In this document: one piece after another, positions 2-64,000 of the stretch
Layout of the letters: every line of letters begins with the position of its first letter
Position numbering within the stretch: position 1 is the stretch's first letter
DNA from: Serinicoccus hydrothermalis
Lineage (GTDB): Bacteria; Actinomycetota; Actinomycetes; Actinomycetales; Dermatophilaceae
Length of the DNA stretch: 64,000 nucleotides
Assembly (NCBI RefSeq): GCF_001685415.1
Contig: NZ_CP014989.1
Location: forward strand, 2,790,001-2,854,000
Direction of reading: 5' to 3'
Translations under genes and position numbers: made by a program
The notes under the pieces: model-generated
Told to the model about the DNA's origin: nothing
What the model saw: the letters and a program-made list of their open reading frames with translations, nothing else
The model's database searches: none

Positions 2-922
2 CTCCGGGAGCGGGTGCTGGAGCTGGAGGACCGGCGGGCCCGGTGGCGGAGGCTCCGGCTCTCTCGCGAGCTGCTGCAGCCCCGGATCGACCGGGACCGC
101 GCGCTGCTCGCCGAGCGGGACCGGGCGTATGCCTCCGAGCAGGCGGACGTGGACCGGCTGGACCGTCCGGGGCTGCGCCGGCTCCTGGCCACCCTGGACC
201 GCTCCCTGGACGAGCGGCGGGTCGAGCAGCTCGCCGAGGCCGACGAGGCCGAGGCGCGGGCGGAGGAGGTCCGGGCCCGGCTCGCCACCCTCGCCGTCGA
301 GGCGGACCGCCTCGACGGCGACATCGCGCTCCTGGGCGACCCGGAGACGGCCTACCAGGAGGCGCTCAGCGACCTCGTCCTGGCCGCCCGCGCGCAGGGC
401 CACCTCACCGGTGCGTCCTCCGGCGGCACGGACGGCGCCGAGGAGGTGCTCGTCCCCGAGCAGGTCGTCGGCTGGGCCGAGCGGCGGCAGCAACGGATCC
501 ACCAGCGGGCCGGGATCGACGCGGTGCTGCCCGTCGCCCGGCAGCTGGTGAAGGAGCTCACGCGGGTGGACCGGCGCCTGCCCGTCGTGGCGGCGGGGAT
601 CGAGGCGTCGATCCCGGCGGGCGATCCCTACGGCGCGCTCCACTGGGTCGACGGGCTCCGTGCGGTGCGGCGGCAGATCGCCGCGGCCGAGGAGGTCGCG
701 TCGCACCTGCGTGAGGAGCTCGCGGCCTCGCGCCTCGAGGTCGACGTGCCCGAGCTCGACGACTTCCCGCAGCGGCTGGGCAGCGTCTTCGACCCGCTGA
801 GCTCACACCAGCTCCTCGAACGGGTCGAGGGGGCGGTCGCCTGGTCGGCGGACCGCCTGGCCGCGGCCAAGGCCCTGGTCGAGCGGCTCGTCGAGCTGCG
901 CGCCGAGCTCGCCGACGCGTGA
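2..922 (+). CDS. Coiled-coil hypothetical protein, 5' end outside window
   Basis: The reading frame is open from the first bases of the window to a TGA at 922, so the N-terminus is probably missing; the GTG at 14 is only the first internal start candidate. The visible 307 codons are rich in Glu, Arg, Leu and Ala with heptad-like spacing over most of the length, as in a long coiled coil, and show no signal peptide or membrane segment. I do not recognise the family. The next gene is on the opposite strand and convergent. Confidence 0.6.
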   Translation, partial: LRERVLELEDRRARWRRLRLSRELLQPRIDRDRALLAERDRAYASEQADVDRLDRPGLRRLLATLDRSLDERRVEQLAEADEAEARAEEVRARLATLAVEADRLDGDIALLGDPETAYQEALSDLVLAARAQGHLTGASSGGTDGAEEVLVPEQVVGWAERRQQRIHQRAGIDAVLPVARQLVKELTRVDRRLPVVAAGIEASIPAGDPYGALHWVDGLRAVRRQIAAAEEVASHLREELAASRLEVDVPELDDFPQRLGSVFDPLSSHQLLERVEGAVAWSADRLAAAKALVERLVELRAELADA

Positions 923-989
923 GGGCGCCGGCCGGGCACGGGGCCCGACCGGCGCGGCCACCCTGGGGTGACGGGGAGTCCCTGCCCCG

Positions 990-1496
990 TCAGCCGGTGG
1001 CCTCCTCGCGCCGGGCGGAGAGCCGGCCCCACGCCCAGTAGCCCACGGCGGCCAGGACGGCCAGGCCGAGGAGCTCGGGCAGGATCGCCGCGAGGAAGGA
1101 CAGGCCGCCGCCGAGCACGCCGAGCAGGGCGAACCCGCCGAGGGCCAGGACGACGAGCGAGCGGCCGCGGCCGTGCCGCAGACCCTGCTCGACGTGCGTG
1201 CGACCGGTGCCGTCGGGCAGGACGGTCCACGCGATGAGGTAGAGCCCGACGCCCACGCCGCCGAGCAGGGCGGCCAGCACCGCGGCGGCACGGACGGCGA
1301 CGGGGGCGACGCCGAGCCGGTCGGCGATGGTCGCGCACACGCCGCCGAGGACGGCCTGGTCGGTGCGGCGGGTGGGGAGGCGGCGCAGGGCGGCATACAG
1401 GCCGTCGAGCGAGCCGGAGCGCTGCTGCTGCGGCACGGGCTGCGGCAGGATCGGGGGGAGGTCGGAGGCGGGGGCGGAGCCGGGGTTCTCGTTCAT
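990..1496 (-). CDS. PspC domain membrane protein
   Basis: 169-residue protein. After a Pro/Gln-rich N-terminus, residues about 45-100 form a PspC domain: Arg-rich entry, 'LGGVCATIADRLGV', then a hydrophobic helix ending 'LIAWTVLPD'. Two further membrane helices follow. PspC proteins are small inner-membrane proteins linked to phage-shock or envelope-stress responses, often as an N-terminal module of sensor kinases; here the domain stands alone. The start at 1496 (MNENPGS) is chosen because the upstream in-frame extension is Arg-rich and unlike the family. The assignment is by motif. Confidence 0.8.
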   Translation of the reverse strand: MNENPGSAPASDLPPILPQPVPQQQRSGSLDGLYAALRRLPTRRTDQAVLGGVCATIADRLGVAPVAVRAAAVLAALLGGVGVGLYLIAWTVLPDGTGRTHVEQGLRHGRGRSLVVLALGGFALLGVLGGGLSFLAAILPELLGLAVLAAVGYWAWGRLSARREEATG

Positions 1497-1632
1497 GGGA
1501 CCCAGCCTGCCGCCGGCCGCTGCCCGGACCGAGCCGGTGGACCACCGGAACGGTGCGGGGGTTATCCCCCTCGGCCGGCACCGGATGCCGTTGCGACCGG
1601 CGATCCTCCCGGGCATCGCGCCCCGAGCGCCC

Positions 1633-1638
1633 TACCGT
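1633..1638 (+). promoter_or_regulatory. Leaderless-type -10 (TACCGT) for the ATP-grasp gene
   Basis: TACCGT lies 7 bp before the ATG at 1646, placing the expected transcription start at or next to the start codon. No ribosome-binding site is visible. It supports the 1646 start over the earlier in-frame one. Confidence 0.45.
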
Positions 1639-1645
1639 GGGGCGC

Positions 1646-3025: not shown

Positions 3026-4357
3026 CAGCAGGCCGCTCGCCCGCACCGGCACGAGGTGGTGCCGGTATGCCGCCAGCCACCCGGTGAGGACGGCCGCCAC
3101 GAGCAGCGAGGCCGAGGTGGCGATGACGATGCCGGCCACCCCGAGGACCGGCGCCAGTGCGAGGTCGCCCACGACGTTGACGACCATCGCGAGGGTGCCG
3201 ATGGCCACCGGTCCGCGGGTATCGCCCACCGTGTAGCAGGCGCTGACGAGGACCTGGCGGCAGGCGAGGGCGAGCAGCCCGGGGACGAACCAGAGCACGG
3301 CCACCGCGGTGAGCCGGACCGCGTCGGCGTCGAACTCGCCCCGGCCGAAGGCGAGGGCCACCACCTGCTCCGGCGCGACGAGCAGCACCACGGCCACCGG
3401 CCCGAGGAGGGTGAGCGAGACGGCCAGCCCGCGGTGCACGAGGCGGCGGACCCGGGCGCGCCCGTCGGCCTGCGCGGCGGCCGCGGCCATGGCGGGGTAG
3501 AGGGGGGCGACCAGCGCGGCCACGACGAGGGTCTCGGGCAGGTTGACCAGCCGCCAGCCGAGGAAGACCGCCGAGACCGCCCCCTCGCCGACGGTGGAGG
3601 CCACGGCGCGGTCCACCAGGGTGTTGACGTTGAGCAGCGCCTGCCCGAGGACCAGGGGCGGGAGCATCGCGGTGATCTCGCGCACCCCGGGGGAGTCGCC
3701 GCGGAGCCGCGCCCGCACCGGCCAGCGGTGCCGGAGCACGGGCACGAGCTGCAGGGCGAGCCGGGCCAGCGAGCCCACGAGGAAGCCGACCGCGAGGGCG
3801 ACGATCCCGAGGTGCGGGCCGAGCAGGCCGGCCGCGGCGATCATCACGAGGTTGAAGGGCACCCCCTGGAGCGCCCCCCACCGGAAGATCCCGTGCGCCT
3901 GCGCCTGCGCCACGAGCAGGTCGGTGGCCGCGACGACGACCGTGGTGACCAGCACGATGCGGGTCAGCAGCACCAGCACGTCCGCCGCCTCGCCGGTGAG
4001 GCCGGGCGCCAGCAGCCGGGAGACGGGGGCCGCGGCGATCCCCAGGGCGACGCTCAGGGCGCCGATGCCGACGACCGCACGGGTGAGGACGACGTCGAAG
4101 GTGCGGTGGCCCGGGCATACCTCCTCGCCGTCCGCCTCCCGCGCGAGCACCGGCGTGCTCGCCCGGGTGAGCGAGGTGCCGAGCAGGCCCAGCACGATGT
4201 TGGCCAGGCCCAGCGCCACGAAGTAGGCGTCGAGCTGCGGCCCGGCGCCGTAGACCGCCGCGATGACGGCGTCGCGGACGAAGCCGAGCAGCGTGGAGAC
4301 GCCGGTGAGGCCGGCGACGAGCAGCGCGGCGCGACCGATGCTCGGTCGGGTCACCAC
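2822..4357 (-). CDS. MurJ/MviN-like lipid flippase
   Basis: 511-residue polytopic membrane protein with about 14 hydrophobic segments and the MVF/MATE pattern: 'GVSTLLGFVRDAVIAAVYG' at the N-terminus, then repeated helix pairs. MurJ proteins flip lipid-linked cell wall precursors (lipid II) across the membrane; related proteins export other lipid-linked sugars. It lacks the kinase-like extension found in some actinobacterial MurJ proteins. It starts with GTG at 4357 (a second GTG follows directly) and converges with the ATP-grasp gene, overlapping it by 204 bp. A paralogous exporter rather than the essential MurJ is possible given this neighbour. Confidence 0.8.
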   Translation of the reverse strand: MVTRPSIGRAALLVAGLTGVSTLLGFVRDAVIAAVYGAGPQLDAYFVALGLANIVLGLLGTSLTRASTPVLAREADGEEVCPGHRTFDVVLTRAVVGIGALSVALGIAAAPVSRLLAPGLTGEAADVLVLLTRIVLVTTVVVAATDLLVAQAQAHGIFRWGALQGVPFNLVMIAAAGLLGPHLGIVALAVGFLVGSLARLALQLVPVLRHRWPVRARLRGDSPGVREITAMLPPLVLGQALLNVNTLVDRAVASTVGEGAVSAVFLGWRLVNLPETLVVAALVAPLYPAMAAAAAQADGRARVRRLVHRGLAVSLTLLGPVAVVLLVAPEQVVALAFGRGEFDADAVRLTAVAVLWFVPGLLALACRQVLVSACYTVGDTRGPVAIGTLAMVVNVVGDLALAPVLGVAGIVIATSASLLVAAVLTGWLAAYRHHLVPVRASGLLLGRAALALLAATLVARLAVGAVHTEQVWWVAALGLVTGALVYQLALAVMRAPERFVVLEVVQQLRRR

Positions 4358-4379: not shown

Positions 4380-5780
4380 TCAGAGGTTGATCATGTGCCC
4401 GGCGATGCCGTGCACGGCCTCCTTGACGGCCTCACCCAGCGTCGGGTGCGCGAAGACGACCCGCGACATCTCGTCGGCGGTGAGGTCCCACGTCTGCGCC
4501 AGGTTGAGCACCGGCAGCAGCTCGGTGACGTCCGGGCCGATGAGGTGCGCGCCGAGGATCTCGTTGTACTTCGAGTCCGCGACCACCTTGACGAAGCCGA
4601 CGCTCTCGCCCTGGCCCATCGCCTTGCCGTTCGCCGAGAAGGGGAACTGCGCCGTCTTGACGTCGTGCCCGGCGTCCTTGGCCGCCTGCTCGGTCATGCC
4701 CATCGAGGCGATCTGCGGGTGGCAGTAGGTGGCGCGGGGGATGAAGGTGTAGTCCAGCGGCATCGTCTCGGCGCCGGCCAGGGTCTCCGCGGCGATGATG
4801 CCCTGGGACTCGGCGGTGTGCGCGAGCATGAGCTTCGCGGTGACGTCACCGATGGCATACACGTGGTCGACGTTGGTGCGCAGGTAGTCGTCGACGGCGA
4901 TGGCGCCGCGCTCGGTGAGCTCGACGCCCGTCGTCTCCAGGCCGAAGCCCTCGACGCGCGGGGCGAAGCCGATGGCCGAGAGCAGCTTGTCCGCCTCGAG
5001 GGTCTGCGAGTCGCCGCCGTCGGCGGGGGTCACGGTGACCTTGACGCCGTCGCCGGTGTCCTCGACGTTCTCGACCTTGGTGCTCGTCATGATCTTCACG
5101 CCGAGCTTCTTGTACTCCTTGGCCAGCGCCTTGGAGATCTCCGGCTCCTCCAGCGGGACGATCCGGTCGAGGAACTCCACGATGGTCACGTCGACGCCGT
5201 AGTTGGCCATGACGTAGGCGAACTCGACGCCGATCGCGCCGGAGCCGGCGATGACGATCGAGCCGGGCAGCTCCTCGTCGAGGATCTGCTCCTCGTAGGT
5301 CACGACGTTCTTGCTGACCTCGACGCCCGGCAGCATCTTGGTGACCGAGCCGGTGGCCAGGATGAGGTCGTCGAAGGTGAGCTGGGTGGTGTTGCCGTCG
5401 TCATCCTTGACGTCCATCGAGGTCGCCGAGGTGAGCGTGCCCCAGCCGTCGACCTCGGTGATCTTGTTCTTCTTCATGAGGAAGTGGACGCCCTTGACGA
5501 TGCCCGAGCTGACCTTGCGGCTGCGCTGGTGGGCGGGGGCGTAGGACATCGTGGCGTCGCCCTCGATGCCGTAGAGGTCCTTCTCGTGGTTGAGGGTGTG
5601 CGCGAGCGCGGCGTTCTTCAGCAGCGCCTTGCTCGGGATGCACCCGACGTTGAGGCAGACCCCGCCCCAGTACTTCTTCTCGACGACGGCGACCTTCTTG
5701 CCCAGCTGGGACGCGCGGATCGCCGCGACATACCCGCCGGGGCCGGCGCCCAGGACAACAACGTCATAGTGATCGGCCAT
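4380..5780 (-). CDS. lpdA: Dihydrolipoyl dehydrogenase
   Basis: 466-residue flavoprotein disulfide reductase, usual length for the family. The FAD-binding '[10 protein letters not shown]' is at residues 11-20, the redox-active pair in '[10 protein letters not shown]' at Cys42 and Cys47, the NAD-binding [10 protein letters not shown] near 180, and the C-terminal catalytic His-Glu in 'HPTLGEA'. It reoxidises dihydrolipoamide in pyruvate and 2-oxoglutarate dehydrogenases and the glycine cleavage system. No E1 or E2 genes are nearby, so it is probably the shared E3. Codon use is less GC-extreme than in its neighbours, typical of a highly expressed gene. Confidence 0.95.
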
Positions 5781-7072: not shown

Positions 7073-8878
7073 ATGACCACCACCCACATCCCCGACGGCG
7101 CCACCGCGATCCCGCCCGGCGTCACCGGCGGCACCTCGACGGGTGCCCAGCAGCGGACCGGCGCCGAGGCGCTGGTGGCCACGCTGGAGCGGCTCGGCGT
7201 CGAGCACGTCTTCGGGCTGCCGGGGGGCGCGGTGCTCCCGCTCTACGACGCGCTCTACGGCGCCAAGGTCCGCCACATCCTCGTCCGGCACGAGCAGGGC
7301 GCGGGCCACGCCGCCCAGGGGTATGCCGCCGCCACCGGCAAGGTGGGCGTCTGCATGGCGACCTCGGGCCCGGGGGCGACCAACCTCGTCACCTCGCTCG
7401 CGGACGCCAACATGGACTCGGTGCCGATGGTCGCGATCACCGGCAACGTCGCCAGCTCGGCCATCGGGTCCGACGCCTTCCAGGAGGCGGACATCCGGTC
7501 GATCTCGATGCCGGTGACCAAGCACTCCTTCCTGGTCACGAACCCGGACGAGATCGCGGCCACCCTCGCCTCGGCCTTCCACATCGCCTCCACCGGCCGG
7601 CCCGGCCCGGTCCTGGTCGACGTGACCAAGGACGCCCTGGTCGCCGCTGCCGACGAGTCGCTGCTCCAGCTGCCGATGCCGGGCTACCGCACCCCGAGCA
7701 GCCCCGCGCCCGAGGAGGTGCGGGACGCCGTCGAGCTCATGCTCACGGCGCGGCGCCCGGTCCTCTACGTCGGCGGCGGCTGCGTGCGGGCCAACGCGGC
7801 GCGGCAGGTCCGCGAGCTCGCCGAGCTCACCGGCATACCCGTCGTCACCACGCTCATGGCGCGTGGCGTCTTCCCGGACAGCCACCCGCAGCACATGGGG
7901 ATGCCCGGCATGCACGGCAGCGTCTCCGGCGTCGCGACGCTGCAGAAGTCGGACCTCATCGTCAGCCTCGGCGCCCGCTTCGACGACCGGGTCACCGGCG
8001 CGAAGCACACCTTCGCCCCGGACGCGACGATCGTGCACGCCGACATCGACCCGGCCGAGATCGGCAAGAACTTCCCGACCGCGGTGGGCCTCGTCGGCGA
8101 CGCCCGGGAGAGCATCGGGCTCATGGTCACCGAGTGGACGCGGCGCACCGCGGCCGGCGCGACGCCCCGCCACGAGGCGTGGGTGCGCCGCTGCTCGTCG
8201 TGGAAGCAGCGCTACCCGCTCGGTTACGACACCCCCTCCGACGGTGCCCTGGCCCCGCAGCTCGTCATCGAGCGGCTCGGCGCGCTCTCCGGCCCGGACA
8301 CGGTCTTCGCCGCCGGGGTCGGGCAGCACCAGATGTGGGCCAGCCAGTTCATCACCTACGACGAGCCGCGGCGTTGGCTCAACTCCGGGGGCCTCGGGAC
8401 GATGGGGTATGCCGTGCCCGCCGCCATGGGTGCCAAGGTCGGCCGCCCGGACTCGACCGTCTGGGCGATCGACGGGGACGGCTGCTTCCAGATGACCAAC
8501 CAGGAGCTCGCGACCTGCTCGGTCGAGGGCATACCCATCAAGGTCGCGATCATCAACAACGCCGCGCTCGGGATGGTCAAGCAGTGGCAGGCGCTGTTCT
8601 ACTCCGAGCGGTTCAGCCACAGCCAGCTGCCCTCGATGCAGGTCCCGGACTTCGCGACGCTCGCGACGGCCTACGGCTGCGTCGGGCTGCGCTGCGACCG
8701 CGCCGAGGACGTCGACTCCACCATCGAGGCGGCCATGGCGGTCGACGACCAGCCGGTCGTGGTGGACTTCCGGGTCAGCCAGGACGCCATGGTCTGGCCG
8801 ATGGTCGCGGCCGGCACGAGCAACGACGACATCCAGCACGCCCGCGACGTGCGACCCGACTTCGGGGAGGACGAATGA
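7073..8878 (+). CDS. ilvB: Acetolactate synthase large subunit
   Basis: 601 residues, full length. It makes 2-acetolactate and 2-aceto-2-hydroxybutyrate, the first common step of Val, Leu and Ile synthesis. The thiamine-diphosphate activating Glu is in '[13 protein letters not shown]' near residue 73, the central FAD domain spans about 220-370, and the Mg/ThDP motif '[12 protein letters not shown]' is near 467. The start at 7073 is used because the upstream frame crosses the leader peptide and terminator. It is first in the operon ilvB-ilvN-ilvC-ilvD and is controlled by the attenuator. Its stop overlaps an ATG that opens the ilvN frame. Confidence 0.96.
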
Positions 8879-9317: not shown

Positions 9318-12219
<2,902 letters not shown>

Positions 12220-12840: not shown

Positions 12841-13647
12841 TCAGGCCAGCTCGGACTGCAGGGCGCGCACCCAGTCGCGCTTGACCGAGCGCCACTCCTC
12901 GTCGGTCAGGCCGCGGCGCCAGTAGGGCGACAGAGAGAGGTGGTCGGGCGAGGCCAGCCCGCCGTCGCGGAGCGCGTGACCCACCGCGCGGATCGACTCC
13001 GCCTCCCCGTGCACGAAGGCGCTGACGACACCGTCGAGCCGGGGGAGCGCGGCGACCGTGTCCGCCAGCAGCCGGGTCAGCGCGTCCTCGTCGCCCGCCG
13101 AGCTGCGGTGGACGTAGGTCACCTCGAGGTCGCCCGGGGAGGTGAGCTCGACCTCGCCGGCCGCGTCCTCGACCTCGACCACCGCGCGGACCGGTATGCC
13201 CGCACCGACCTGCTCGGCGCAGGCCGCGATCGCGGGAAGGGCGGACTCGTCGCCGACGAGCAGCACGCCGTCGGCCTCGGTCGGGGGAGAGTAGTCACCC
13301 GCGGGGCCGCGCAGCTGCAGCCGGTCACCGGGGCGGGCGTGCAGCGCCCAGCGGCCGGCATACCCCACCTCGCCGTGCACGACGAAGTCGATGGTCATCT
13401 CCCGCGTCTGGGGGTCCCAGGACCGGAGGGTGTAGCGGCGCGGGTAGGGGCGCTGCTCCCGCGGCAGCTCGCGCGTCGCCTCGTCCTCGAAGGGCGGCGC
13501 GTAGTCGGCGCCGGCCGGCAGGAAGAAGGCGTTGACGTAGGAGTCGGCGAACTGCGGGTCCGCGAAGTCGGCGAGGCCCTCCCCGCCGAGGACGACGCGC
13601 ACCAGCTGCGGGGTGAGCTGCTCGGTGCGCACGACCGTGCCGTACAT
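12841..13647 (-). CDS. Siderophore-interacting protein (FAD/NAD(P)H ferric reductase)
   Basis: 268 residues of the ViuB/SIP family. The flavin-binding motif 'RRYTLRSWDP' is near residue 75, 'GDRLQLRGPAGDY' follows, and 'LLVGDESALPAIAAC' near 130 begins the NAD(P)H-binding domain; the C-terminus carries the family 'YWRRGLTDEEW' signature. These cytosolic enzymes release iron from imported ferric siderophores by reduction. The ATG at 13647 has a strong AAGGAGAA site. A DtxR/IdeR-like half-site lies 33 bp upstream, so iron repression is likely (inference). Confidence 0.9.
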   Translation of the reverse strand: MYGTVVRTEQLTPQLVRVVLGGEGLADFADPQFADSYVNAFFLPAGADYAPPFEDEATRELPREQRPYPRRYTLRSWDPQTREMTIDFVVHGEVGYAGRWALHARPGDRLQLRGPAGDYSPPTEADGVLLVGDESALPAIAACAEQVGAGIPVRAVVEVEDAAGEVELTSPGDLEVTYVHRSSAGDEDALTRLLADTVAALPRLDGVVSAFVHGEAESIRAVGHALRDGGLASPDHLSLSPYWRRGLTDEEWRSVKRDWVRALQSELA

Positions 13648-19110: not shown

Positions 19111-19542
19111 ATGCCCACGATCCGCGCCGCGCACTTCGCCGACCTCGACAACCGCGTGCTGCACGACCTGCTCCGGCTGCGGGTCGACGTCTTCGTCGTC
19201 GAGCAGGACTGCGCCTACCCCGAGATCGACGGACGCGACGTCGAGGAGGGCACCGAGCACCTGTGGATGGACCTCGACGGTCAGGTCGCCGCCACGGTGC
19301 GCGTCCTGCACGACCCCGACGGCACCCGGCACCTGGGTCGCGTCGCCACGCACCGGGACCACCGCGGCCAGGGGTATGCCGCGGCGCTGCTGCGGGAGGG
19401 GCTGGAGCGGCTCGGCCCGGGCCCGGTGCACCTCGGCGCCCAGGCCTACCTCGAGCAGTGGTACGCCCGTCTGGGCTTCCGCCGCAGCGGCGAGGACTAC
19501 CTCGAGGACGGCATCCCGCACCTGCCGATGGTCAGGGACTGA
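19111..19542 (+). CDS. elaA: GNAT N-acetyltransferase, ElaA family
   Basis: 143 residues, family length. 'LLRLRVDVFVVEQDCAYPEIDGRD' is the ElaA N-terminal signature, and 'LGRVATHRDHRGQGYAAALL' holds the acetyl-CoA-binding R/QxxGxG/A motif (about 76-95). The C-terminal 'YARLGFRRSGEDYLEDGIPHLPM' is also typical. The substrate is unknown. It abuts the convergent ndh gene with no gap. Confidence 0.9.
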   Translation: MPTIRAAHFADLDNRVLHDLLRLRVDVFVVEQDCAYPEIDGRDVEEGTEHLWMDLDGQVAATVRVLHDPDGTRHLGRVATHRDHRGQGYAAALLREGLERLGPGPVHLGAQAYLEQWYARLGFRRSGEDYLEDGIPHLPMVRD

Positions 19543-22004: not shown

Positions 22005-22013
22005 GGCTGAGGT

Positions 22014-46600: not shown

Positions 46601-47691
<1,091 letters not shown>

Positions 47692-47896: not shown

Positions 47897-51589
<3,693 letters not shown>

Positions 51590-54141: not shown

Positions 54142-55907
54142 GCGAGACCCACGAGTTCGGCCTGTGGGCACCCGACGCCGAGCGGGTCGACCTGCTGCTC
54201 GGTCCCCGTCCCGAGGACGCCACCTCCGTGCCCATGGAGGTGGGCGAGGACGGCTGGTGGCGGGCGGGCGCCGACCCCGAGCCGCACGAGGGCCGGTATG
54301 CCTTCTCCGTCGACGGCGGCATCGCCATCCCCGACCCGCGCTCGCGGCACCAGCCGGACGGCGTGCACGCGCCGAGCCGGCTGGTGGACACCGCCGGCTT
54401 CGCGTGGTCGGACGACGCCTGGGCAGGCGTGGAGCTGGAGCGGGCCGCGGTCTACGAGCTGCACGTCGGGACCTTCACCCCCGAGGGCACCTTCGAGGCC
54501 GCCGCCGGCCACCTCGACCACCTCGTCGACCTCGGCGTCACCGTCGTCGAGCTCATGCCGGTGGCCGCCTTCCCGGGCCGCCACGGCTGGGGCTACGACG
54601 GGGTGGCGCCGTATGCCGTGCACGACCCCTACGGCGGGCCGGAGGGCCTGGCCGCCTTCGTCGACGCGGCCCACGCCGCAGGGCTGGCCGTGTGGCTGGA
54701 CGTCGTCTACAACCACCTCGGGCCGAGCGGCAACTACCTCTCCCAGGCGGGTCCCTACTTCACCGACCGGCACCACACGCCGTGGGGCGAGGCGGTCAAC
54801 CTCGACGGACCGGGCAGCGACGAGGTGCGGGACTACCTGCTCGACAACACCGCGATGTGGCTCGAGGACTACCACCTCGACGGGCTCCGGCTCGACGCCG
54901 TCCACGCCCTGCACGACGAGCGCGCCGTGCACCTGCTCGAGGAGCTCGCCGAGCTGGCCGACCAGATCGGGGAGCGTACGGGCATACCCCGCTCGCTCGT
55001 CGCCGAGTCCGACCGCAACGACCCGGCCACGGTGTCGCGGCGGGGCCCCGGAGGCGCCGGCGGCCTCGGGCTGCACGGGCAGTGGGCCGACGACGTCCAC
55101 CACGCCCTGCACGTGCTGCTCACCGGCGAGGCGCAGGGCTACTACGCCGACTTCGCCGATCCGGCCGCGATCCCCAAGGTGCTGGGCCGGACCCCGTTCT
55201 TCCACGACGGGACCTTTTCCACCTTCCGCGAGCGGGTGCACGGGCGCCCGGTCGACCTCGGGGTCACCGAGCCGTGGCGCTTCGTGGCCTCGCTGCAGAC
55301 GCACGACCAGGTCGGCAACCGGGCGGTCGGTGACCGCGTGCACCACGGCATACCCCTGGGCCGGCACGCGATCGGGGCGGCGCTGCTGCTCACCGCCGCG
55401 TGGACGCCGATGCTCTTCATGGGCGAGGAGTGGTCCGCGGGGACCCCGTGGCAGTACTTCACCGACCACGAGGAGGAGTGGCTCGCGCAGTCGATCCGGG
55501 AGGGGCGGCAGGCCGAGTTCGCCGAGCACGGCTGGGCCGGGCAGGTCCCGGACCCCCAGGACGCCGGCACCGTCGAGGCCTCGACCCTGGACTGGTCCGA
55601 GCCGGGCCGCGAGCCGCACGCGCAGATGCTCGAGCTCTACCGCACCCTCCTGCGGTGGCGCGCCACGACGCCCGCCTCCGCGCGCGGCACCACCGCCACC
55701 GTGACCCGCGAGGCCGACGGGGCCGGGGGAGAGGTGCTCACCGTCGACCGTCCCGGCGTGCTCGTGCTGGCCCGGCTCGGGGGAGAGGGCGCCGTCCGCC
55801 GTGAGGTGCCGCAGGGCACGCACGTCCTCATCTCCCACCCGCCGCAGGAGCCGGTGGACGGCGCCGTGGAGCTGGGGCCGGACGGCGTGGTGGTGATGAC
55901 CCGATGA
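54138..55907 (+). CDS. treZ: Malto-oligosyltrehalose trehalohydrolase
   Basis: 589 residues, GH13. An N-terminal carbohydrate-binding E-set domain (1-100) precedes the barrel with 'DVVYNHLGPSGNY', 'GLRLDAVHALHD' (nucleophile Asp), 'LVAESDRNDP' (acid/base Glu) and 'LQTHDQVGNRA'. It releases trehalose from the TreY product. Its GTG start overlaps the treY stop, with AGGAGGG upstream. treX (debranching) is not in the window. Confidence 0.96.
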   Translation: MSETHEFGLWAPDAERVDLLLGPRPEDATSVPMEVGEDGWWRAGADPEPHEGRYAFSVDGGIAIPDPRSRHQPDGVHAPSRLVDTAGFAWSDDAWAGVELERAAVYELHVGTFTPEGTFEAAAGHLDHLVDLGVTVVELMPVAAFPGRHGWGYDGVAPYAVHDPYGGPEGLAAFVDAAHAAGLAVWLDVVYNHLGPSGNYLSQAGPYFTDRHHTPWGEAVNLDGPGSDEVRDYLLDNTAMWLEDYHLDGLRLDAVHALHDERAVHLLEELAELADQIGERTGIPRSLVAESDRNDPATVSRRGPGGAGGLGLHGQWADDVHHALHVLLTGEAQGYYADFADPAAIPKVLGRTPFFHDGTFSTFRERVHGRPVDLGVTEPWRFVASLQTHDQVGNRAVGDRVHHGIPLGRHAIGAALLLTAAWTPMLFMGEEWSAGTPWQYFTDHEEEWLAQSIREGRQAEFAEHGWAGQVPDPQDAGTVEASTLDWSEPGREPHAQMLELYRTLLRWRATTPASARGTTATVTREADGAGGEVLTVDRPGVLVLARLGGEGAVRREVPQGTHVLISHPPQEPVDGAVELGPDGVVVMTR

Positions 55908-56679: not shown

Positions 56680-57630
56680 CTACGCAGGACGATGCCGCTC
56701 GACGGCGACGACGCGGGCCTTCCTCCCGGCGCCGAGCATCGTGCACGCGAGCACCTCACCCTTGTCCATCGGCCGCCCGGCCAGCCGCTTCAGCATGCGC
56801 CGGTCGGAGGACTCCAGCGAGGCGTCGGCGCGGGCCAGCAGCATCCCGGCCAGGTCGGGCAGCAGCGGGCCGTGGGTGCACAGCGCCGTCCCGACGCCCT
56901 GCGCCATGACCCGCTCGACGTGCTTGGCCAGCGCGCCCGGGTGCGCCTCGAAGCCCTCCTCGGAGAGCCCCTTCTTGGTGGTCAGCGGTATGCCCTCGGC
57001 CGCCGCGAAGGGCTCGACCGTCTCCGTGCACCGCACCGACGGCGAGCTGAGGACCACCTCGGGGCCGTAGGCCGAGAGCAGGGCCTGGACCCGGCCGCGC
57101 GCCCGCTGGCGCCCCGGCCGGGTGAGGGGGCGGCGGGGGTCCGGGTCGTGCCACTCCGAGCGGGGGACCGCCAGGGCGTGCCGCACCACGAGGAGGGACC
57201 AGGTGGCCAGCCGGTCGGCGTCGTCGAGCGCGACGAGGGCGTCGAGCTGGTCCCGGTCGCGGGGGTAGCTGAGCCGCCGGCTCGCCTGCTTCGGGGAGAG
57301 CCAGGCCACCTCGTCGACCTCGTGGTCGAGGGCGCCCGCGCCGCCGCTGACCTCACCGGTCCAGTAGTGCACCAGCTTGTCCGGACCGCTCGTGAGGCGG
57401 TAGCGCGCCGGGGGCAGCGGCATACCCAGCCGGACCCGCAGCCCGGTCTCCTCCCAGGTCTCGCGCACCGCCGCAGAGGGGAAGTCCTCGCCCCGGTCCA
57501 GCTTGCCCTTGGGCCAGGACCAGTCGTCGTACTTCGGCCGGTGGACCAGCGCCACCTCCAGCTTGCCGTGGCGTCGGCGCACCGGCAGCACCCCACCGGC
57601 GCGCACGACCGGCGGACCGCCCCCGCTCAT
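56680..57630 (-). CDS. mutT1: Nudix hydrolase fused to histidine phosphatase (MutT1-like)
   Basis: 316 residues. The Nudix box 'GKLDRGEDFPSAAVRETWEETGL' region is at about 42-64; a phosphoglycerate-mutase-like domain begins 'LLVVRHALAV' (RHA catalytic motif) near 148 and contains 'LSSPSVRCTETVEPFA'. This two-domain layout is that of mycobacterial MutT1, which removes 8-oxo-dGTP or related oxidised nucleotides and diadenosine polyphosphates. It overlaps mshD by 4 bp, joining it to oxidative-stress defence. Confidence 0.88.
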   Translation of the reverse strand: MSGGGPPVVRAGGVLPVRRRHGKLEVALVHRPKYDDWSWPKGKLDRGEDFPSAAVRETWEETGLRVRLGMPLPPARYRLTSGPDKLVHYWTGEVSGGAGALDHEVDEVAWLSPKQASRRLSYPRDRDQLDALVALDDADRLATWSLLVVRHALAVPRSEWHDPDPRRPLTRPGRQRARGRVQALLSAYGPEVVLSSPSVRCTETVEPFAAAEGIPLTTKKGLSEEGFEAHPGALAKHVERVMAQGVGTALCTHGPLLPDLAGMLLARADASLESSDRRMLKRLAGRPMDKGEVLACTMLGAGRKARVVAVERHRPA

Positions 57631-58586
57631 GCGTCCGCGTCTCCCGCGGCATACATGACGTCGATCGCGGACCGCTCGAAGCCGAGCCGGTGGTAGGTGG
57701 CGATCGCGGGGTCGTTGTCCCCGTCGACGTAGAGCGTGGCCGTCTCCACACCGCGGTTGCGCAGGTGCTGCAGGCCCAGCAGGGTCACCGCCGAGCCGAG
57801 GCCGCGGCCCTGGTAGTCGGGGTCGACCCCGACGACGTAGACCTCACCGGTGTCCGGGTGGTCGGTCTCCACCTTGGTCCAGTGGAAGGCGGCCAGCCGC
57901 GGCTCGCCCTCGGGGTCGACGTCGGTCGTGTCGACGACGACGAGGAAGCCGGAGGGGTCGAACCACGGCTCCTCCTGCCGGTCGTGCAGGTCCGCCAGCG
58001 TCATCCGGCCCTGCTCGGGGTGGTCGGCGAAGGCGCGGGCGTTCAGCGCGAGCCAGGGCTCGTCGTCGGCGCCGACGCGGTAGGTCCGGACCTCGAAGCC
58101 GTCCGGCAGCTCGACCTCGGCCGGCAGGTCCGACCACTCGCCGGCCAGCGGGCGGGACATCTGCCACAGCTCGCGCACGACGCGCAGCCCGCGCGAGCCG
58201 TAGAGGGTCCGCGCGTCCTGCAGGTCGCCGTGGCTCCACAGCCGGACCTGCGGCCAGCGGCGGAGCACGTGGTCGAGCAGGGTCCCGCCGAGCCCGCGAC
58301 GCCGGTGCTCCGGGTCGACGACGATCTCGGCCGAGGGGGCGTCCGGGTCGCTGAGGTCGACGTGGCCGTAGCCCGCCACGCCGCCGTCGGTGCGCAGCAC
58401 GAGGTGGGTGCCGGACTCGTGGCTGTCGGCCTGCTCCGGGAGCCGCCGCGCCTGGAGCACGGTCTGCTCCGAGAGGGGTCTGACCCCGTCGTGCCGGGCC
58501 GCGCGGACGGCCAGGGCGAGGACGTCCCCGGACACCTGGCCGGGCAGTGCAGGGAGCTCGTCGATGTCGGGCCGCGGTCCAGGCAT
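57627..58586 (-). CDS. mshD: Mycothiol synthase
   Basis: 319 residues, two GNAT domains. The N-terminal acetyl-CoA site is 'VVDPEHRRRGLGGTLLDHVL' (about 90-110), the C-terminal one 'VGVDPDYQGRGLGSAVTLLGL' (about 250-270). It acetylates Cys-GlcN-Ins in the last step of mycothiol synthesis. The neighbour glnR is the conserved actinobacterial arrangement. The ATG at 58586 has CAGACT 7 bp upstream. It is translationally coupled to the MutT1-like gene. Confidence 0.93.
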   Translation of the reverse strand: MPGPRPDIDELPALPGQVSGDVLALAVRAARHDGVRPLSEQTVLQARRLPEQADSHESGTHLVLRTDGGVAGYGHVDLSDPDAPSAEIVVDPEHRRRGLGGTLLDHVLRRWPQVRLWSHGDLQDARTLYGSRGLRVVRELWQMSRPLAGEWSDLPAEVELPDGFEVRTYRVGADDEPWLALNARAFADHPEQGRMTLADLHDRQEEPWFDPSGFLVVVDTTDVDPEGEPRLAAFHWTKVETDHPDTGEVYVVGVDPDYQGRGLGSAVTLLGLQHLRNRGVETATLYVDGDNDPAIATYHRLGFERSAIDVMYAAGDADA

Positions 58587-59350: not shown

Positions 59351-59401
59351 AGGAGCCTGCGCCTGCGGTCCCGACCGGTCCGGGTGGGGCAAGATGGAGG
59401 T

Positions 59402-60205
59402 ATGCCCGTGCCCACCTCCGGCGAGCGCCCCGCGGACCGCCCGACCCGGGGCCTCGTGGGCTCGCTGGTGCTCGTGGTCGTGAGCGTCTCCGGGCTGCTG
59501 GCCCTGGCGGCGGTGGCCGCCCCGTGGCTGCTCGCCGTGGGCCTGGCCGCGTGCACCGTCGTCATCGCCTGGGGGTGGTCGGGGACCTTCGGGCTGCCCT
59601 CGCCCCGCGGCACGGTCGGGGTGCTGCTCGTGGGCGGGCTCGCGCTGGTGACCTCCGTCGGGGTCCGGGAGGAGGAGCCGTGGCTGGGGTGGGCACCGGC
59701 CGCGCTCGCGCTCGCGATGATCGCGGCCTTCGTGCACCAGCTGCTCCGCGTCGACGGGCGGCCGCGCGTCGTGCAGTCGATCAGCTCGGTCGTCCTCGGG
59801 CTCGCGCTCGTGGGCTGCGGGATCCTCATGGTGCCCGCGAGCCACACCGCCGAGGGCATCGCGCTGCTGCTGGGCGCGCTCGGCGCCGCGGGAGCGTCCT
59901 CGCTCAGCGACCTGCTGGGGCTGTGGGCGCCGCTGCGCGGCTGGGCGATGGCGCTGGCGATGCTCGCGGGAGGGGCGGCGGCGCTGGCCGTCGCCCTGGC
60001 GCTGCACGCCAGCCCGACGACCTGGCTCGTCGTGGGCGTGGCGGCCGGCGCGCTGAGCCACGCGCTGCGCAGCGTGCTCGTGGGGCTGCCGCCGCTGGCG
60101 CACGCCCGGCCCCGGCTCGTCGCCGGGGTGGTGTCCGTGCTCGTGGTCGGCGTGGTGCCCTACCTCGTGGGGCTGGCCTTCGTGCCGTCGGCCTTCCCCG
60201 GATGA
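59402..60205 (+). CDS. Hypothetical polytopic membrane protein
   Basis: 267 residues with about eight hydrophobic segments and short loops, no charged domain. Short stretches 'HLLRVDGRPRVVQSISSVVLG'-like loops separate helices. No family recognised; comparable proteins often sit beside glnR/mshD in this phylum. CAAGAT is 6 bp before the ATG at 59402. Confidence 0.7.
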   Translation: MPVPTSGERPADRPTRGLVGSLVLVVVSVSGLLALAAVAAPWLLAVGLAACTVVIAWGWSGTFGLPSPRGTVGVLLVGGLALVTSVGVREEEPWLGWAPAALALAMIAAFVHQLLRVDGRPRVVQSISSVVLGLALVGCGILMVPASHTAEGIALLLGALGAAGASSLSDLLGLWAPLRGWAMALAMLAGGAAALAVALALHASPTTWLVVGVAAGALSHALRSVLVGLPPLAHARPRLVAGVVSVLVVGVVPYLVGLAFVPSAFPG

Positions 60206-60729: not shown

Positions 60730-61923
60730 TCAGCCGCCGAAGCCGGAACGGGGCGACACCGGGTCGGTGTAGTCCTCCATGGTGTCGTTCCTCAGGTGCT
60801 CGGAGAGGTCCGCCATCTGGTCGTCGGCCATGACGACGATGGAGCCGGCCACCGGGTGGTTGGCGATGCCGGTCCACGGGGCGGTCTCGAAGTGGATGTC
60901 GTCACCGCGCACCCCGCGCATCTGGAAGCCCAGGTCGCGCATGTCGCCCACCTGCAGGTCGGCGTCCACGGTGAGGTTGGTCGTCGCCGCGTCGACGAAG
61001 CTCGCGAGCCGCGCCGGGTTGGTCAGCGTCTCCCGGGACAGCGCCTTGGTCATGATCCCCTGGATGAAGGCCTGCTGGCGCTGGCCGCGCGAGATGTCGC
61101 CCTGGGAGAGGGCATACCGCTCGCGGACGAACTCCAGCCCGGTCGCGCCGTCCATGTGCATGACGCCCTCGGGGAAGCCGGGCGAGGACTCGGCGACGTC
61201 GACGTCGACCCCGCCGATGGCGTCGGTCATGGCCTGGAAGCTCTGGAAGTTGACGACGACGACGTGGTCGATCGGCACGTCGACCAGCGGCTGCAGGGTC
61301 TGGACCAGCAGCGGCGCCCCGCCGTAGGAGTAGGCGGCGTTGATCTTGGAGGAGCCGCCGGTGCCCGCGATGGGGACGAAGAGGTCGCGCGGGAAGTGGA
61401 TGAGGTCGACCCGGTCGCGCTCGTCGTTGATGTGCATGAGCACGATGACGTCGGAGCGGCCCCGCTCGACCGACAGGTCGCGGCTGTCCGAGCCGATGAT
61501 GAGGAAGTTCTGCGCCTCCCCGGCCTCGGCCGGCCGCTCCGGCGTCTCCGCCTGGAACTCGCTCTCCCCGACCTCGATCGCCTGACCGTCCTCGCCGACG
61601 ATCGGGGCGGCGCTCTCCTCCTCGGTCTCCACCGTGCCCTCGAGGTCCACCGACCCCTCCGGGTCCTCGGCGTCCGCCTCGCTGTCCTCGGGCTGCTCGG
61701 AGCCGAAGCGGTCCGGCGAGATCGTCACCGTCGAGTCGTCCTGCGCGTTGAGGTCCTCCCGCTCGATGTTGCCCTCGACCGTGCGCTGGAGGAAGAAGGC
61801 ATACCCCCCGAGCGCGAGGACCCCGACGAGCGCCAGCACGCCGATGCCGGCGGCGAACAGGCGCAGCGGTCGCCGCCGTCGGCGGTCCGGGGTGCCTCCC
61901 CCGGGAGTGTGGTCATCCCTCAT
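60730..61923 (-). CDS. LytR-CpsA-Psr (LCP) family ligase
   Basis: 397 residues. One N-terminal membrane helix (about 20-45), an acidic linker rich in Glu/Asp (about 55-135), then the LCP domain: 'NFLIIGSDSRDLSVERGRSDVIVLMHIN' (two blocks), 'HFPRDLFVPIAG', 'INAAYSYGG', 'ALSQGDISRGQRQQAFIQG'. LCP proteins attach glycopolymers from polyprenyl-phosphate carriers to peptidoglycan on the outer face of the membrane. TAGACT is 8 bp before the ATG. Confidence 0.92.
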   Translation of the reverse strand: MRDDHTPGGGTPDRRRRRPLRLFAAGIGVLALVGVLALGGYAFFLQRTVEGNIEREDLNAQDDSTVTISPDRFGSEQPEDSEADAEDPEGSVDLEGTVETEEESAAPIVGEDGQAIEVGESEFQAETPERPAEAGEAQNFLIIGSDSRDLSVERGRSDVIVLMHINDERDRVDLIHFPRDLFVPIAGTGGSSKINAAYSYGGAPLLVQTLQPLVDVPIDHVVVVNFQSFQAMTDAIGGVDVDVAESSPGFPEGVMHMDGATGLEFVRERYALSQGDISRGQRQQAFIQGIMTKALSRETLTNPARLASFVDAATTNLTVDADLQVGDMRDLGFQMRGVRGDDIHFETAPWTGIANHPVAGSIVVMADDQMADLSEHLRNDTMEDYTDPVSPRSGFGG

Positions 61924-62020
61924 GGGGGAGGAGTCTACGACCGGTTCCTTCGGACTTCCTGGACCCGCGTACCGTGGAGGTGCTGGTCAGAGAGCAGGCA
62001 CCGCGACGAGAGGGAGCCCC

Positions 62021-63061
62021 ATGGACGTGCTGCTGGACCGCCCCGGGGCGGTGGACGGTCTCGGCGTCGACGCCGGGGTCGCGGCGCACTACGGCGACCC
62101 GCACCGGGAGCAGCGCCTGCTCGAGGAGGGGCTGGCCGTCGTCGACCTGTCGCACCGCGGCGTGGTCACGGTCTCCGGGCCGGACCGGCTCAGCTGGTTG
62201 CACTCGCTCACCAGCCAGCAGCTCACCGACCTGCCGCCGCGCACGTCCACCGAGACGCTCGTCCTGACGCCCAAGGGCCACGTCGAGCACGCCCTGCACG
62301 TCGTCGACGACGGCGGGACGACCTGGATCACCACCGAGCCCGGCGCCGCGCCCGCCGTGGCCGGCTGGCTGGACTCGATGCGCTTCATGCTCCGGGTCGA
62401 GGTCGAGGACGTCACCGCCCGGTATGCCGTGCTCGGCGAGCCGGTGGCGCGCGAGTCCGCCGAGGGAGAGCCGCTCGCCTGGGTCGACCCGTGGCCGGGC
62501 CCCGTGGGCGACACGTACTGCTACGGGCCGGAGGGCGATGACCACCCCGGCTCGGGGCGGGCCTGGCGCGAGCTCATCGTGCCGCGCGAGGAGCTCGCCG
62601 CCGCGGTCGGCGACCGGCCGCTCGCCGGCACCTGGGCCGCCGAGGCGCTGCGGGTCGCCGCCTGGCGCCCGCGGGCCGGCGTCGACACCGACCACCGCAC
62701 GATCCCGCACGAGCTGGACTGGCTGCGCACCGCCGTGCACCTGCACAAGGGGTGCTACCGCGGGCAGGAGACGGTCGCCCGGGTGAAGAACCTCGGCCGC
62801 CCGCCCCGCCGGGTGGTCTTCCTCCACCTCGACGGCTCCGGGCACGTCATCCCCGAGGCCGGTGCCGAGCTGACCCCGCTCGAGGGCGGGCGCCCCGTCG
62901 GCCACCTCACCAGCGTCGCCCGGCACGCCGAGGACGGCCCGGTCGCCCTGGCCCTGGTCAAGCGCACCCTCGACCCCGGTCTGACCCTCCTCGCCGAGGG
63001 CACCGCCGCCGCGCAGACGGTGATCGTCCCGGCCGACGGTCCGAGGGCGCGCCGGCCCTGA
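62021..63061 (+). CDS. ygfZ: YgfZ/GcvT-domain folate-binding protein
   Basis: 346 residues. The family marker K-G-C-Y-x-G-Q-E is present in 'LHKGCYRGQETVARVKNLG' near residue 245; the first domain begins 'VDLSHRGVVTVSGPDRLSWLHSLTSQQL'. YgfZ uses tetrahydrofolate to help repair or assemble particular iron-sulfur proteins, here possibly including IlvD (inference). A GAGAGGGAG ribosome-binding site precedes the ATG at 62021. Confidence 0.93.
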   Translation: MDVLLDRPGAVDGLGVDAGVAAHYGDPHREQRLLEEGLAVVDLSHRGVVTVSGPDRLSWLHSLTSQQLTDLPPRTSTETLVLTPKGHVEHALHVVDDGGTTWITTEPGAAPAVAGWLDSMRFMLRVEVEDVTARYAVLGEPVARESAEGEPLAWVDPWPGPVGDTYCYGPEGDDHPGSGRAWRELIVPREELAAAVGDRPLAGTWAAEALRVAAWRPRAGVDTDHRTIPHELDWLRTAVHLHKGCYRGQETVARVKNLGRPPRRVVFLHLDGSGHVIPEAGAELTPLEGGRPVGHLTSVARHAEDGPVALALVKRTLDPGLTLLAEGTAAAQTVIVPADGPRARRP

Positions 63062-63074
63062 CAGGATCAGGCCC

Positions 63075-64000
63075 ATGCCCACCCAGACCCATCAGACCTC
63101 CGGCTCGCCGCTGGCCACCGCTCCCGTCGTCGCGGAGGTGGTGCGCGGCGGCTTCGTGGAGTCGGTGCACCACGGCGTGGTCGCGCTGACCGCGGCCGAC
63201 GGTGCCGTGCACCTGGCGGTCGGACCGGTCGACGCCCCGATCCTGCCGCGCTCCTCGCTCAAGCCCATGCAGGCGATCGCCATGCTGCGGGCCGGCGCGG
63301 ACCTGCAGGACGAGCTGCTCGCCCTGGCCTGCGCCAGCCACTCCGGGGAGGAGCACCACCTCGAGGGCGCGCGCCGCATCCTCGCCTCGGTGGGGCTGGA
63401 CGAGTCGGCGCTGCGCAACACCCCCGACCTCCCGCTCGACGAGGAGCAGCGGCGCGCCTGGATCCAGGAGGGCGCCCCGCCCACCTCCCTCGGGCAGAAC
63501 TGCTCGGGCAAGCACGCCGGCATGCTCGCGGCGTGCGTCGCCGCGGGGTGGGACACCGCCACCTACCTCGACCCGGAGCACCCGCTGCAGCGCCTCGTGG
63601 TCGAGGTCATCGAAGAGTTCACCGGAGAGCAGGTCGAGGTCGCGACCGTCGACGGGTGCGGGGCACCGGCGCTCGGGGTCTCCTCGGCCGGGCTGGCCCG
63701 CGCCTTCGGCCGGATCGCGGCCGCCGGGCCGGAGACCGAGGCGGGCCGGGTGGCCGCGGCGATCCGGGCCTACCCGGAGCATCTCGGCGGCACCGGCCGC
63801 GACGTCACCGAGCTCGTCCGCGCGGTGCCCGGGCTCATCGCCAAGGACGGCGCCGAGTCGGTGTATGCCGTCGGCCTGCCGGACGGGCGCGGCCTGTCGG
63901 TGAAGATCACCGACGGCGGCGAGCGGGCGAGGGTGGTCGTGGCCACCGCGGTGCTGCGCCGGGCCGGCGCGGCGGAGCTGGGGCCGCAGGCCGGGTCGAC
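63075..64000 (+). CDS. Asparaginase II-family protein, 3' end outside window
   Basis: The frame is open from the ATG at 63075 to the window end (308 codons seen). 'VVRGGFVESVHHGVVALTAADG' and 'LPRSSLKPMQAIAML' open it; 'SHSGEEHHLEG', 'GQNCSGKHAGMLAACVAAGW' and 'VDGCGAPALGVSSAGLARAF' are the blocks of the thermolabile L-asparaginase (AnsA-like, Rhizobial-type) family. It would hydrolyse asparagine to aspartate and ammonia. CAGGAT is 7 bp before the ATG. Only about 10-20 residues should be missing. Confidence 0.88.
   Translation, partial: MPTQTHQTSGSPLATAPVVAEVVRGGFVESVHHGVVALTAADGAVHLAVGPVDAPILPRSSLKPMQAIAMLRAGADLQDELLALACASHSGEEHHLEGARRILASVGLDESALRNTPDLPLDEEQRRAWIQEGAPPTSLGQNCSGKHAGMLAACVAAGWDTATYLDPEHPLQRLVVEVIEEFTGEQVEVATVDGCGAPALGVSSAGLARAFGRIAAAGPETEAGRVAAAIRAYPEHLGGTGRDVTELVRAVPGLIAKDGAESVYAVGLPDGRGLSVKITDGGERARVVVATAVLRRAGAAELGPQAGS

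Follow-up and report, generated by a model that had tools for sequence, protein, structure and literature searches.

An orientation-spaced, family-restricted DNA word in Serinicoccus hydrothermalis as a candidate uptake signal

The over-representation of the 7-mer GTATGCC in the window, that is the whole stretch of 64,000 nucleotides that was analysed, is confirmed as genuine and extends over the whole genome. The word is probably a DNA-uptake-sequence-like self-signal of natural competence that is directionally read, a reading to which we assign a probability of roughly 55% and which fits best of the three candidates named by the first-pass annotation. We infer that cells read the word while taking up DNA, that drive preserves it, and what the reader is.

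Abundance and conservation of the word

As shown in Table 1, exact matching found 54 copies in the window, split evenly between the strands (27 each). Since the zero-order composition expectation is only 5.5, the first-pass annotation was right in its estimate of about 54 copies, equal in both orientations and some tenfold in excess. One hundred dinucleotide shuffles of the window gave a mean of 2.16 copies and a maximum of 7. All instances of TATGCC in the window lie within GTATGCC, and the base 5′ of the word is G in 36 of the 54 copies. The coordinates given earlier were correct within 1–2 bases apart from 41020, where the letters read CGCATAC and there is no copy, and the codon contexts described (Gly-Ile-Pro, Tyr-Ala, Val-Cys and Ala-Tyr) are all among those in called genes.

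Table 1. Copies of the word GTATGCC in the 64-kb window, each an exact match.
Position	Strand	Context	Further basis
127..133	+		
1392..1398	-		
3065..3071	+		
4114..4120	-		
4854..4860	-		
7321..7327	+	inside ilvB-like gene 7073-8878 (+)	gene call, NCBIfam
7832..7838	-	inside ilvB-like gene 7073-8878 (+)	
8407..8413	+	inside ilvB-like gene 7073-8878 (+)	
8528..8534	-	inside ilvB-like gene 7073-8878 (+)	
9989..9995	+		
10959..10965	+	inside gene 10519-12219 (+), labelled ilvD by the first-pass annotation	gene call
11509..11515	-	inside gene 10519-12219 (+)	
12171..12177	+	inside gene 10519-12219 (+)	
13194..13200	+		
13357..13363	-		
15313..15319	+		
19374..19380	+		
19597..19603	-		
22012..22018	+	overlaps called ATG start, gene 22014-24152 (+)	gene call
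22257..22263	+		
23357..23363	-		
24023..24029	+		
27110..27116	-		
27841..27847	-		
28052..28058	-		
33108..33114	+		
34340..34346	+		
35891..35897	+		
37240..37246	-		
37657..37663	+		
39044..39050	-		
43623..43629	-		
44075..44081	+		
47308..47314	-		
48434..48440	-		
49514..49520	-		
49940..49946	-		
50057..50063	+		
50555..50561	+		
50958..50964	-		
52175..52181	+		
52482..52488	-		
54296..54302	+		
54611..54617	+		
54981..54987	-		
55347..55353	-		
56988..56994	+		
57419..57425	-		
57648..57654	-		
59400..59406	+	overlaps called ATG start, gene 59402-60205 (+)	gene call
61111..61117	-		
61798..61804	-		
62422..62428	+		
63863..63869	+		

The 3.6-Mb genome holds 3,177 copies (1573 forward and 1604 reverse), or one per 1.13 kb on average, against 149 (80 forward and 69 reverse) for the control word read backwards. 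In 464 kb of the genome GTATGCC was the most extreme 7-mer (434 observed, 23.8 expected), and none of its 21 one-base variants was comparably enriched in the same 464 kb, the highest being GTATGTC (34 against 8.9) and GTAGGCC (137 against 62.6). The information content is limited to about 8–9 bases around the word. It was present in all 20 stretches of 20 kb that were sampled, in 5 to 31 copies, and these counts were over-dispersed rather than even (mean 19.0, variance 47).

It is next to impossible that codon usage, amino-acid context or mutation bias produces this excess. In genes the word does encode peptides such as Tyr-Ala and Gly-Ile-Pro, but in the codon-shuffle check proposed by the first-pass annotation the excess survived 10.7-fold (378 observed against 35.5 ± 5.3) while the reversed control stood at 15 against 11.6. 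Density is similar in coding (0.92 per kb) and non-coding DNA (0.82 per kb), 69% of all TAT codons in the 464 kb, and 79% of all ATA codons, sit inside the word, and one congener (G022) is almost without it. Five results thus support selection or biased conversion acting on the DNA word itself, as proposed earlier: the codon-aware null, the parity of coding and non-coding DNA, the replacement of the word by a second one in related genera, the near-absence in the congener and the spacing and orientation rule described below. Against a G+C-rich background (GC3 96%) the copies are conspicuous, and gain, loss and change of dialect can therefore be traced codon by codon.

Conservation was assessed on TAT, ATA, CAT and GTA codons inside and outside the word, with totals added by hand. 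In three close congeners pooled (G021, G010 and G026) 92 of 117 such codons were kept in the word and 24 of 56 elsewhere; in the nearly as close G028 the figures were 12 of 30 and 4 of 16. No excess retention was seen in the more distant G016 (10/25 and 6/15) and G013 (2/10 and 2/10). Conservation above background is therefore supported at short distance only, and the expectation that the word would be lost more slowly than other synonymous sites holds in close congeners and fails in G016 and G013.

Orientation, spacing and distribution in the family

Copies were balanced between the leading (261) and lagging (239) strands, as assigned by eye from GC skew. KOPS-type FtsK-orienting sequences are biased to the leading strand, and this balance rules against such a function. 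Copies in the same orientation exclude one another below about 600 bp, whereas copies in opposite orientation do not, and neighbouring copies therefore tend to alternate: consecutive pairs were 158 same against 317 opposite in this genome, 270 against 438 in 36 other genomes, and 30 against 65 for the second dialect. The same-orientation exclusion implies a polar reader, of whatever identity. Close inverted pairs are rare, with 10 neighbouring pairs less than 60 bases apart in 464 kb, one at 16 bases and the others at 33 or more; the use of such pairs as terminators, common though not universal among DUS and USS, was therefore not found here.

Within the genomes searched the word is a trait of the family. 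A patchy set of 108 of 186 Dermatophilaceae genomes, in 31 of 53 genera and including Phycicoccus and Terrabacter, is rich in GTATGCCG, and none of 362 sampled genomes from other families of the Actinomycetales was comparable as judged by eye. A second dialect, GGATGCCG, occurs in seven genomes of the family, two of which have GTATGCCG and GGATGCCG together. The polarity, the dialects and the family-wide distribution were not described by the first-pass annotation.

Uptake signal and alternative roles

If the word is an uptake signal, a competence component (the Tad/Flp pilus, ComEA or another surface protein) would favour word-bearing DNA, a single strand would be imported via ComEC, and recombination would swap word-less alleles for word-bearing ones, so that uptake-biased drive would let copies build up to about one per kb. 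For a directional reader one copy would make same-orientation neighbours within about 0.6–1 kb superfluous and leave opposite ones useful, so that each strand would be tagged about every 2 kb. Four of the features by which DUS and USS are recognised were found: a short non-palindromic word repeated hundreds to thousands of times, no bias of orientation to replication, lineage-specific dialects, and competence machinery in the host, the last equally in word-less relatives.

The genome has a comEA-comEC operon and three Tad-like clusters. In the family, comEC was found in 80 of 80 genomes, comEA in 64 of 65 (by gene calls) and a tadA locus in 10 of 10. The competence genes sought on the earlier suggestion are thus present, but without association with the word: all three are as frequent in word-less relatives as in word-rich ones, and their presence is therefore no predictor of it. 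The comparison covered the presence of com and tad genes and brought up no candidate for a receptor. Interrupted comEC was seen in 5 of 65 genomes, three of 28 without either word and two of 35 with GTATGCC. G140 alone is word-poor among the three genomes of its genus that were examined and has a comEC broken across frames; since interruption also occurs in word-rich genomes, this single example is suggestive. In a word-rich congener whose comEC carries a prophage-like insertion, the 20.4 kb of insertion examined contained 2 copies, where about 10.7 are expected (Poisson p = 0.0015, a test picked after the fact).

The main rival to an uptake signal is a Chi-like polar recombination signal, at which a RecBCD-class helicase-nuclease coming from a DNA end would switch to producing recombinogenic single strand. 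Polarity and exclusion over about 0.6–1 kb are predicted by such a translocating reader, the exclusion arising because the first correctly oriented copy is enough, and the length of 7–8 bases resembles Chi. AdnAB is expected to show a neighbouring pair of PDDEXK_1 domains in long open frames, and among the matches listed such pairs were seen for most of 42 genomes; the domains as such were present in all 42 tested, but do not distinguish word-rich from word-less genomes. With genomes split by hand into word classes, RecC was found in 16 and not found in 17 of 33 GTATGCC genomes, in none of six strong GGATGCCG genomes tested (two also with GTATGCC) and in none of seven g2 genomes (some of which show the second dialect weakly), against 24 of 34 word-less genomes. 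RecC is thus, if anything, rarer among word-rich genomes; the genome containing the window has it. Dialects confined to one family would be unexpected for a conserved core enzyme, and the leading-strand polarisation that serves as a criterion for detecting Chi (PMC8022716) is absent here. On balance we regard a Chi-like role as unlikely.

A role in chromosome organisation or as a nucleoid-protein site, whether HIP1-like or architectural, agrees with the density of about one copy per kb in all sampled stretches and with the presence of the word in coding and non-coding DNA alike, but a simple binding site would not be expected to show exclusion between same-orientation copies alone, the counts are over-dispersed and relatives survive without the word. 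A nucleoid or replication site is a poorer fit, given the balance of orientation relative to replication and the apparent polarity of the reader, and is quite improbable. HIP1 is a palindromic octamer and GTATGCC is non-palindromic, so a palindromic repeat of that type was rejected. Slightly more improbable still is that a restriction-like or defence system methylates the word or uses it to mark self, its abundance serving to tell self from foreign DNA. The few copies in the prophage-like insertion would suit it, and turnover of the enzyme could yield dialects and sporadic loss, but methylation leaves the same-orientation exclusion unexplained, and genomes usually avoid restriction targets instead of accumulating them.

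More tentatively than the uptake reading as such, the word may be an independently arisen transformation self-signal in monoderm Actinomycetota that has two or more dialects, a translocating or strand-selective reader and separate self-spacing tags on each strand. If true, uptake sequences would have originated independently once more, outside Neisseriaceae and Pasteurellaceae, and here in polar form. Confirmation would mean convergent evolution of species-selective gene exchange with a different pilus type, would mark many poorly studied genera as potentially naturally transformable, and would offer a simple genetic tool, the word added to donor DNA.

Comparison with known systems

In the literature covered, genome-wide uptake signals are described for two Gram-negative families, Neisseriaceae and Pasteurellaceae; among the matches listed from the open-licence literature no report concerned Gram-positives, and the word sequences themselves were in no relevant paper there. 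Micrococcus luteus requires two tad clusters for transformation (PMC4322843), and tad clusters, comEA and comEC are likewise present here. The main text of that paper makes no mention of uptake sequence, uptake signal or sequence-specific, and a review (PMC6370729) names DUS for Neisseria. Like the Chi of RecBCD (PMC8022716), GTATGCC is short, polar and over-represented; unlike it, GTATGCC has no leading-strand bias, and about half of the word-rich genomes yielded no RecC.

The copy number and density of GTATGCC are comparable to those of uptake sequences, its mean spacing being close to the approximately 1 kb of the Haemophilus USS (PMC1939737, PMC7811141). The full-length Pasteurellaceae USS is modelled as 31 bp (PMC1939737, PMC7811141; cf. 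PMC2346458), in contrast to the 8–9 informative bases here. In Haemophilus, uptake reportedly does not depend on the orientation of the signal (PMC1939737, PMC7811141), whereas orientation matters for GTATGCC, which counts against the uptake reading.

The Neisseriaceae DUS, with eight dialects and one genome with two of them (PMC3630211, Frye et al. 2013), is likewise a short non-palindromic word in thousands of copies, limited to a family, phylogenetically patchy and with closely similar dialects. It differs in sequence, and the hosts of GTATGCC are unrelated high-GC Gram-positives whose putative uptake machinery is of Tad type instead of type IV pilus and ComP. GTATGCC also differs from DUS in excluding same-orientation neighbours and in rarely forming close inverted pairs; this exclusion is a quantitative clue to the working of the reader and could be sought in Neisseria and Haemophilus.

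Abundance and coding context of GTATGCC

The word GTATGCC occurs exactly 54 times in the window, 27 times on each strand and against 2.16 in shuffled sequence, which bears out the hand count of about 54 copies in equal orientations made in the first-pass annotation. In the window TATGCC is always found within GTATGCC, and 36 of the 54 copies have a G immediately before. The same excess was present throughout the host genome, a single contig of 3,597,394 bases, in which 1573 copies lie forward and 1604 reverse, compared to 80 and 69 of the reversed control (the same letters read backwards). In a 464-kb sample, made up of the window together with 20 stretches of 20 kb spread evenly over the same genome, GTATGCC was the top 7-mer (434 copies, 23.8 expected by a second-order Markov model) and GGTATGCC the top 8-mer (308 copies, 10.5 expected by the same model). 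The flanks were nearly uninformative in this sample, with G before the word in 71% of copies, G after it in 51% and a weak T at the second base after it in 31%.

Gene calls from our own codon-usage script, not a published gene finder, gave 398 genes in the 464 kb (coding 88.8%, GC3 96%), and the word had a density of 0.92 per kb inside genes and 0.82 outside. Most TAT codons (181 of 263) and ATA codons (55 of 70) lay within the word. Synonymous shuffling within genes left 35.5 +/- 5.3 copies where 378 were observed, and under the same shuffling the reversed control was close to its expectation (15 versus 11.6). A codon or amino-acid explanation of the excess is ruled out by this null, in agreement with the earlier proposal that selection or biased conversion acts on the DNA word itself. 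Gene GC3 gave no simple prediction of word density. The ATG within GTATGCC is the start of 13 of the 398 called genes, and the window genes at 22014 and 59402 apparently begin in this way. For the window's ilvD-labelled gene (locus L009), the nearest proteins among the records scanned were from Saccharothrix carnea (86%) and then Phycicoccus (84%), a weak hint of possible horizontal transfer from a scan that may lack nearer records.

Orientation and spacing of the copies

Successive copies in 544 kb of this genome had the same orientation 158 times and opposite orientations 317 times (p = 2.5e-13). Pooling 36 other word-rich genomes gave 270 same and 438 opposite neighbours (p = 2.9e-10), of which the 26 genomes from other genera contributed 142 and 233; this pool omitted G108, G112, G178, G206, G140, G201 and G067 by name and all genomes with fewer than 5 copies, did not include G022, and had one overlapping G076 stretch dropped. 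Alternation varied among single genomes and was absent in G016 (21/19, in a run using the first stretch alone for several genomes). The second dialect, GGATGCCG, alternated in G201 (30 same, 65 opposite), and no alternation was seen for the weak second dialect in G178 (16/15). The opposite fraction of 0.667 for GTATGCC lies above that of 416 similarly abundant 7-mers (mean 0.468, maximum 0.589) and of 80 rarer 7-mers containing TA (mean 0.380, maximum 0.638).

The alternation arises because copies in the same orientation exclude each other. At distances of 20 to 600 bp, 63 same-orientation pairs were found where 131.5 were expected, compared to 162 opposite pairs with 131.3 expected, and below 100 bp there were 0 same-orientation pairs in this genome (23 expected) and 5 in other genomes (27.6 expected). 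Same-orientation gaps were more regular than random (CV 0.87 versus 1.02 +/- 0.05), and convergent and divergent pairs showed no consistent difference. Alternation was strong inside genes (42 same versus 113 opposite) and also present between genes (94 versus 164). A bias in gene position was rejected as its source, the quintiles along genes holding 31, 51, 44, 51 and 38 sense copies and 29, 30, 31, 38 and 30 antisense copies. A replication-oriented signal is likewise ruled out by 261 leading and 239 lagging copies, the strands being assigned by GC skew within the stretches and not by a mapped origin. We interpret the spacing as the mark of a reader that works in one direction and would gain nothing from another like-oriented copy less than approximately 0.6-1 kb away.

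Distribution, dialects and turnover

The family, taken to be the one containing Phycicoccus and Terrabacter (Intrasporangiaceae under NCBI taxonomy), was sampled with 186 genomes of 53 genera, and a genome was called rich at >=100 copies of GTATGCCG, the form of GTATGCC counted family-wide, per Mb and >=2.5x the reversed control. By this threshold 108 of the 186 genomes, spread over 31 of the 53 genera, were rich; a further 13 had 40-99 per Mb and 65 had fewer, and the forward share of copies across the rich genomes was 49.9%. All 31 genomes of the window's genus were rich in GTATGCC except G022 (43/44 copies), and no rich member was found among the 12 species of genus g2 or the 16 of g52. Among named strains, Phycicoccus sp. 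Root101 had 727/741 copies of GTATGCCG and Terrabacter sp. MAHUQ-38 1006/1018, and their control counts equal those of G167 (g67) and G198 (g72), respectively, which is the basis for the family assignment; counts in ten further named Actinomycetota ranged from 5 to 102. Of 396 genomes drawn across the order, 362 came from other families, and by eye none of these exceeded approximately 3.2x the reversed control, the ratio of G507, the largest among them. Mapped onto a 64-genome comEC tree, the presence of GTATGCC requires 9 changes, compared to 21.3 with shuffled labels; the trait is therefore clustered, yet was gained or lost several times.

In a k-mer survey of fetched loci, G followed nearly every copy in most word-rich genera outside the window's (23/23 in G166, 20/20 in G188); for the species of the window the share was only about half. 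In G086 (L165) and G033 (L181) GTATGACG was enriched about equally to GTATGCCG, which suggests a degenerate position in their genera. GGATGCCG was dominant in G201 (1977/1972, reversed 140/149), G073, G074, G090 and G091, weak in G031 and G178, and accompanied by GTATGCC in G092 (1104/1091 and 642/640, respectively) and G093 (1116/983 and 601/654). A further word, CGAAGGGG(G), was over-represented in both orientations, mainly in coding sequence, in the GTATGCC-poor genera g52 and g61, with at most weak alternation (51 same versus 69 opposite). A strong excess of CACCTACT in G206 (17 versus 0.6 expected in 60 kb; L131, L132, L150) could be due to local repeats.

Where a gene of the window species could be aligned to an orthologue, its words were retained at the exact site in 31 of 50 cases in G021, 30 of 56 in G010, 40 of 62 in G026, 17 of 51 in G028, 12 of 42 in G016, 4 of 21 in G013 and 0 of 14 in word-poor G022. 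Copies thus turn over as the total remains high. The conservation relative to other synonymous sites that the first-pass annotation had proposed to look for was present in the close set G021, G010 and G026, where the rare codons TAT, ATA, CAT and GTA survived 92 times out of 117 when part of the word and 24 times out of 56 elsewhere (sums by hand, cases from the species not being independent). The corresponding figures were 12/30 and 4/16 in G028, and codons inside and outside the word did not differ in G016 (10/25 and 6/15) or G013 (2/10 and 2/10).

Competence genes and comparison with known uptake signals

The search for competence genes, suggested along with the word, located a comEA-comEC operon of which both products pass their Pfam cut-offs; with NCBIfam, ComEC scored 190.0 bits, 0.05 bit short of the 190.05 cut-off, and ComEA was below its own. 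Of three Tad-like clusters in this genome, one has a TadA above the NCBIfam cut-off; two other TadA-like ATPases fall below it and three Flp-like pilin genes have no family match, so that those clusters are assigned by gene order and our own reading. With comEC in 80/80 family genomes and the same type of tadA locus in 10/10 examined, these genes do not explain which genomes carry the word, and a search for a receptor yielded no candidate, neither comEA/comEC presence nor a small Tad locus separating word-rich from word-less genomes.

The comEC gene was interrupted in 5 of 65 genomes, the word-poor G140, G022 and G124 and the word-rich G017 and G064, although in G022 the gene stops close to the edge of a contig, and errors in sequencing are possible. 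In G140, the sole word-poor of three g58 genomes, comEC (L119, ~7.07-9.46 kb) is split across two reading frames. Prophage-like insertions occupy the same comEC position in two different genera, each with a gene at one end whose N-terminus, MRALIYARVS, resembles that of a large serine recombinase. With comEC as an apparent attachment site, competence may be shut off by lysogeny.

Coordinates and loci of comEC insertions and of the CGAAGGGG(G) word
Feature	Genome or genera	Contig	Position (kb)	Fetched loci
Prophage-like insertion in comEC	G017	C46	68.5-109.0	L115, L116
Prophage-like insertion in comEC	G124	C1	2176.7-2204.4	L117, L118
CGAAGGGG(G) loci	g52 and g61			L125-L127, L137-L141, L146, L147, L208-L210

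A DNA-uptake-like self-signal of natural competence, read directionally, is our preferred explanation of GTATGCC, with a probability of roughly 0.55. A Chi-like recombination signal would account for the polarity equally well, but is judged unlikely, leaving unexplained the absent replication bias, the missing RecC and the patchy dialects. RecBCD-Chi itself was rejected on the distribution of RecC relative to word state: RecC was found in 40 of 80 genomes, being 16/33 with GTATGCC, 0/6 with strong GGATGCCG, 0/7 of g2 and 24/34 of the others (split by hand). PDDEXK_1 domains, which occur in AdnAB, were present in 42/42 genomes tested. For the uptake signal, a directional reader is plausible from the entry of DNA through ComEC, which is reported to pass it across the membrane as a single strand.

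In the open-licence literature, GTATGCC and its dialect words were in no relevant paper, and no uptake sequence of Actinobacteria or of other Gram-positives was among the matches listed. Uptake-biased recombination is the mechanism proposed for the uptake sequences of Neisseria (PMC3630211) and Haemophilus (PMC1939737, PMC7811141), and would maintain GTATGCC here. As described in the same sources and PMC2346458, the uptake sequences of both genera resemble GTATGCC in being at once abundant, balanced in orientation and independent of codons, with dialects and a restriction to one family. The main difference is from the Haemophilus signal: GTATGCC is polar, whereas Haemophilus uptake is described as independent of signal orientation.
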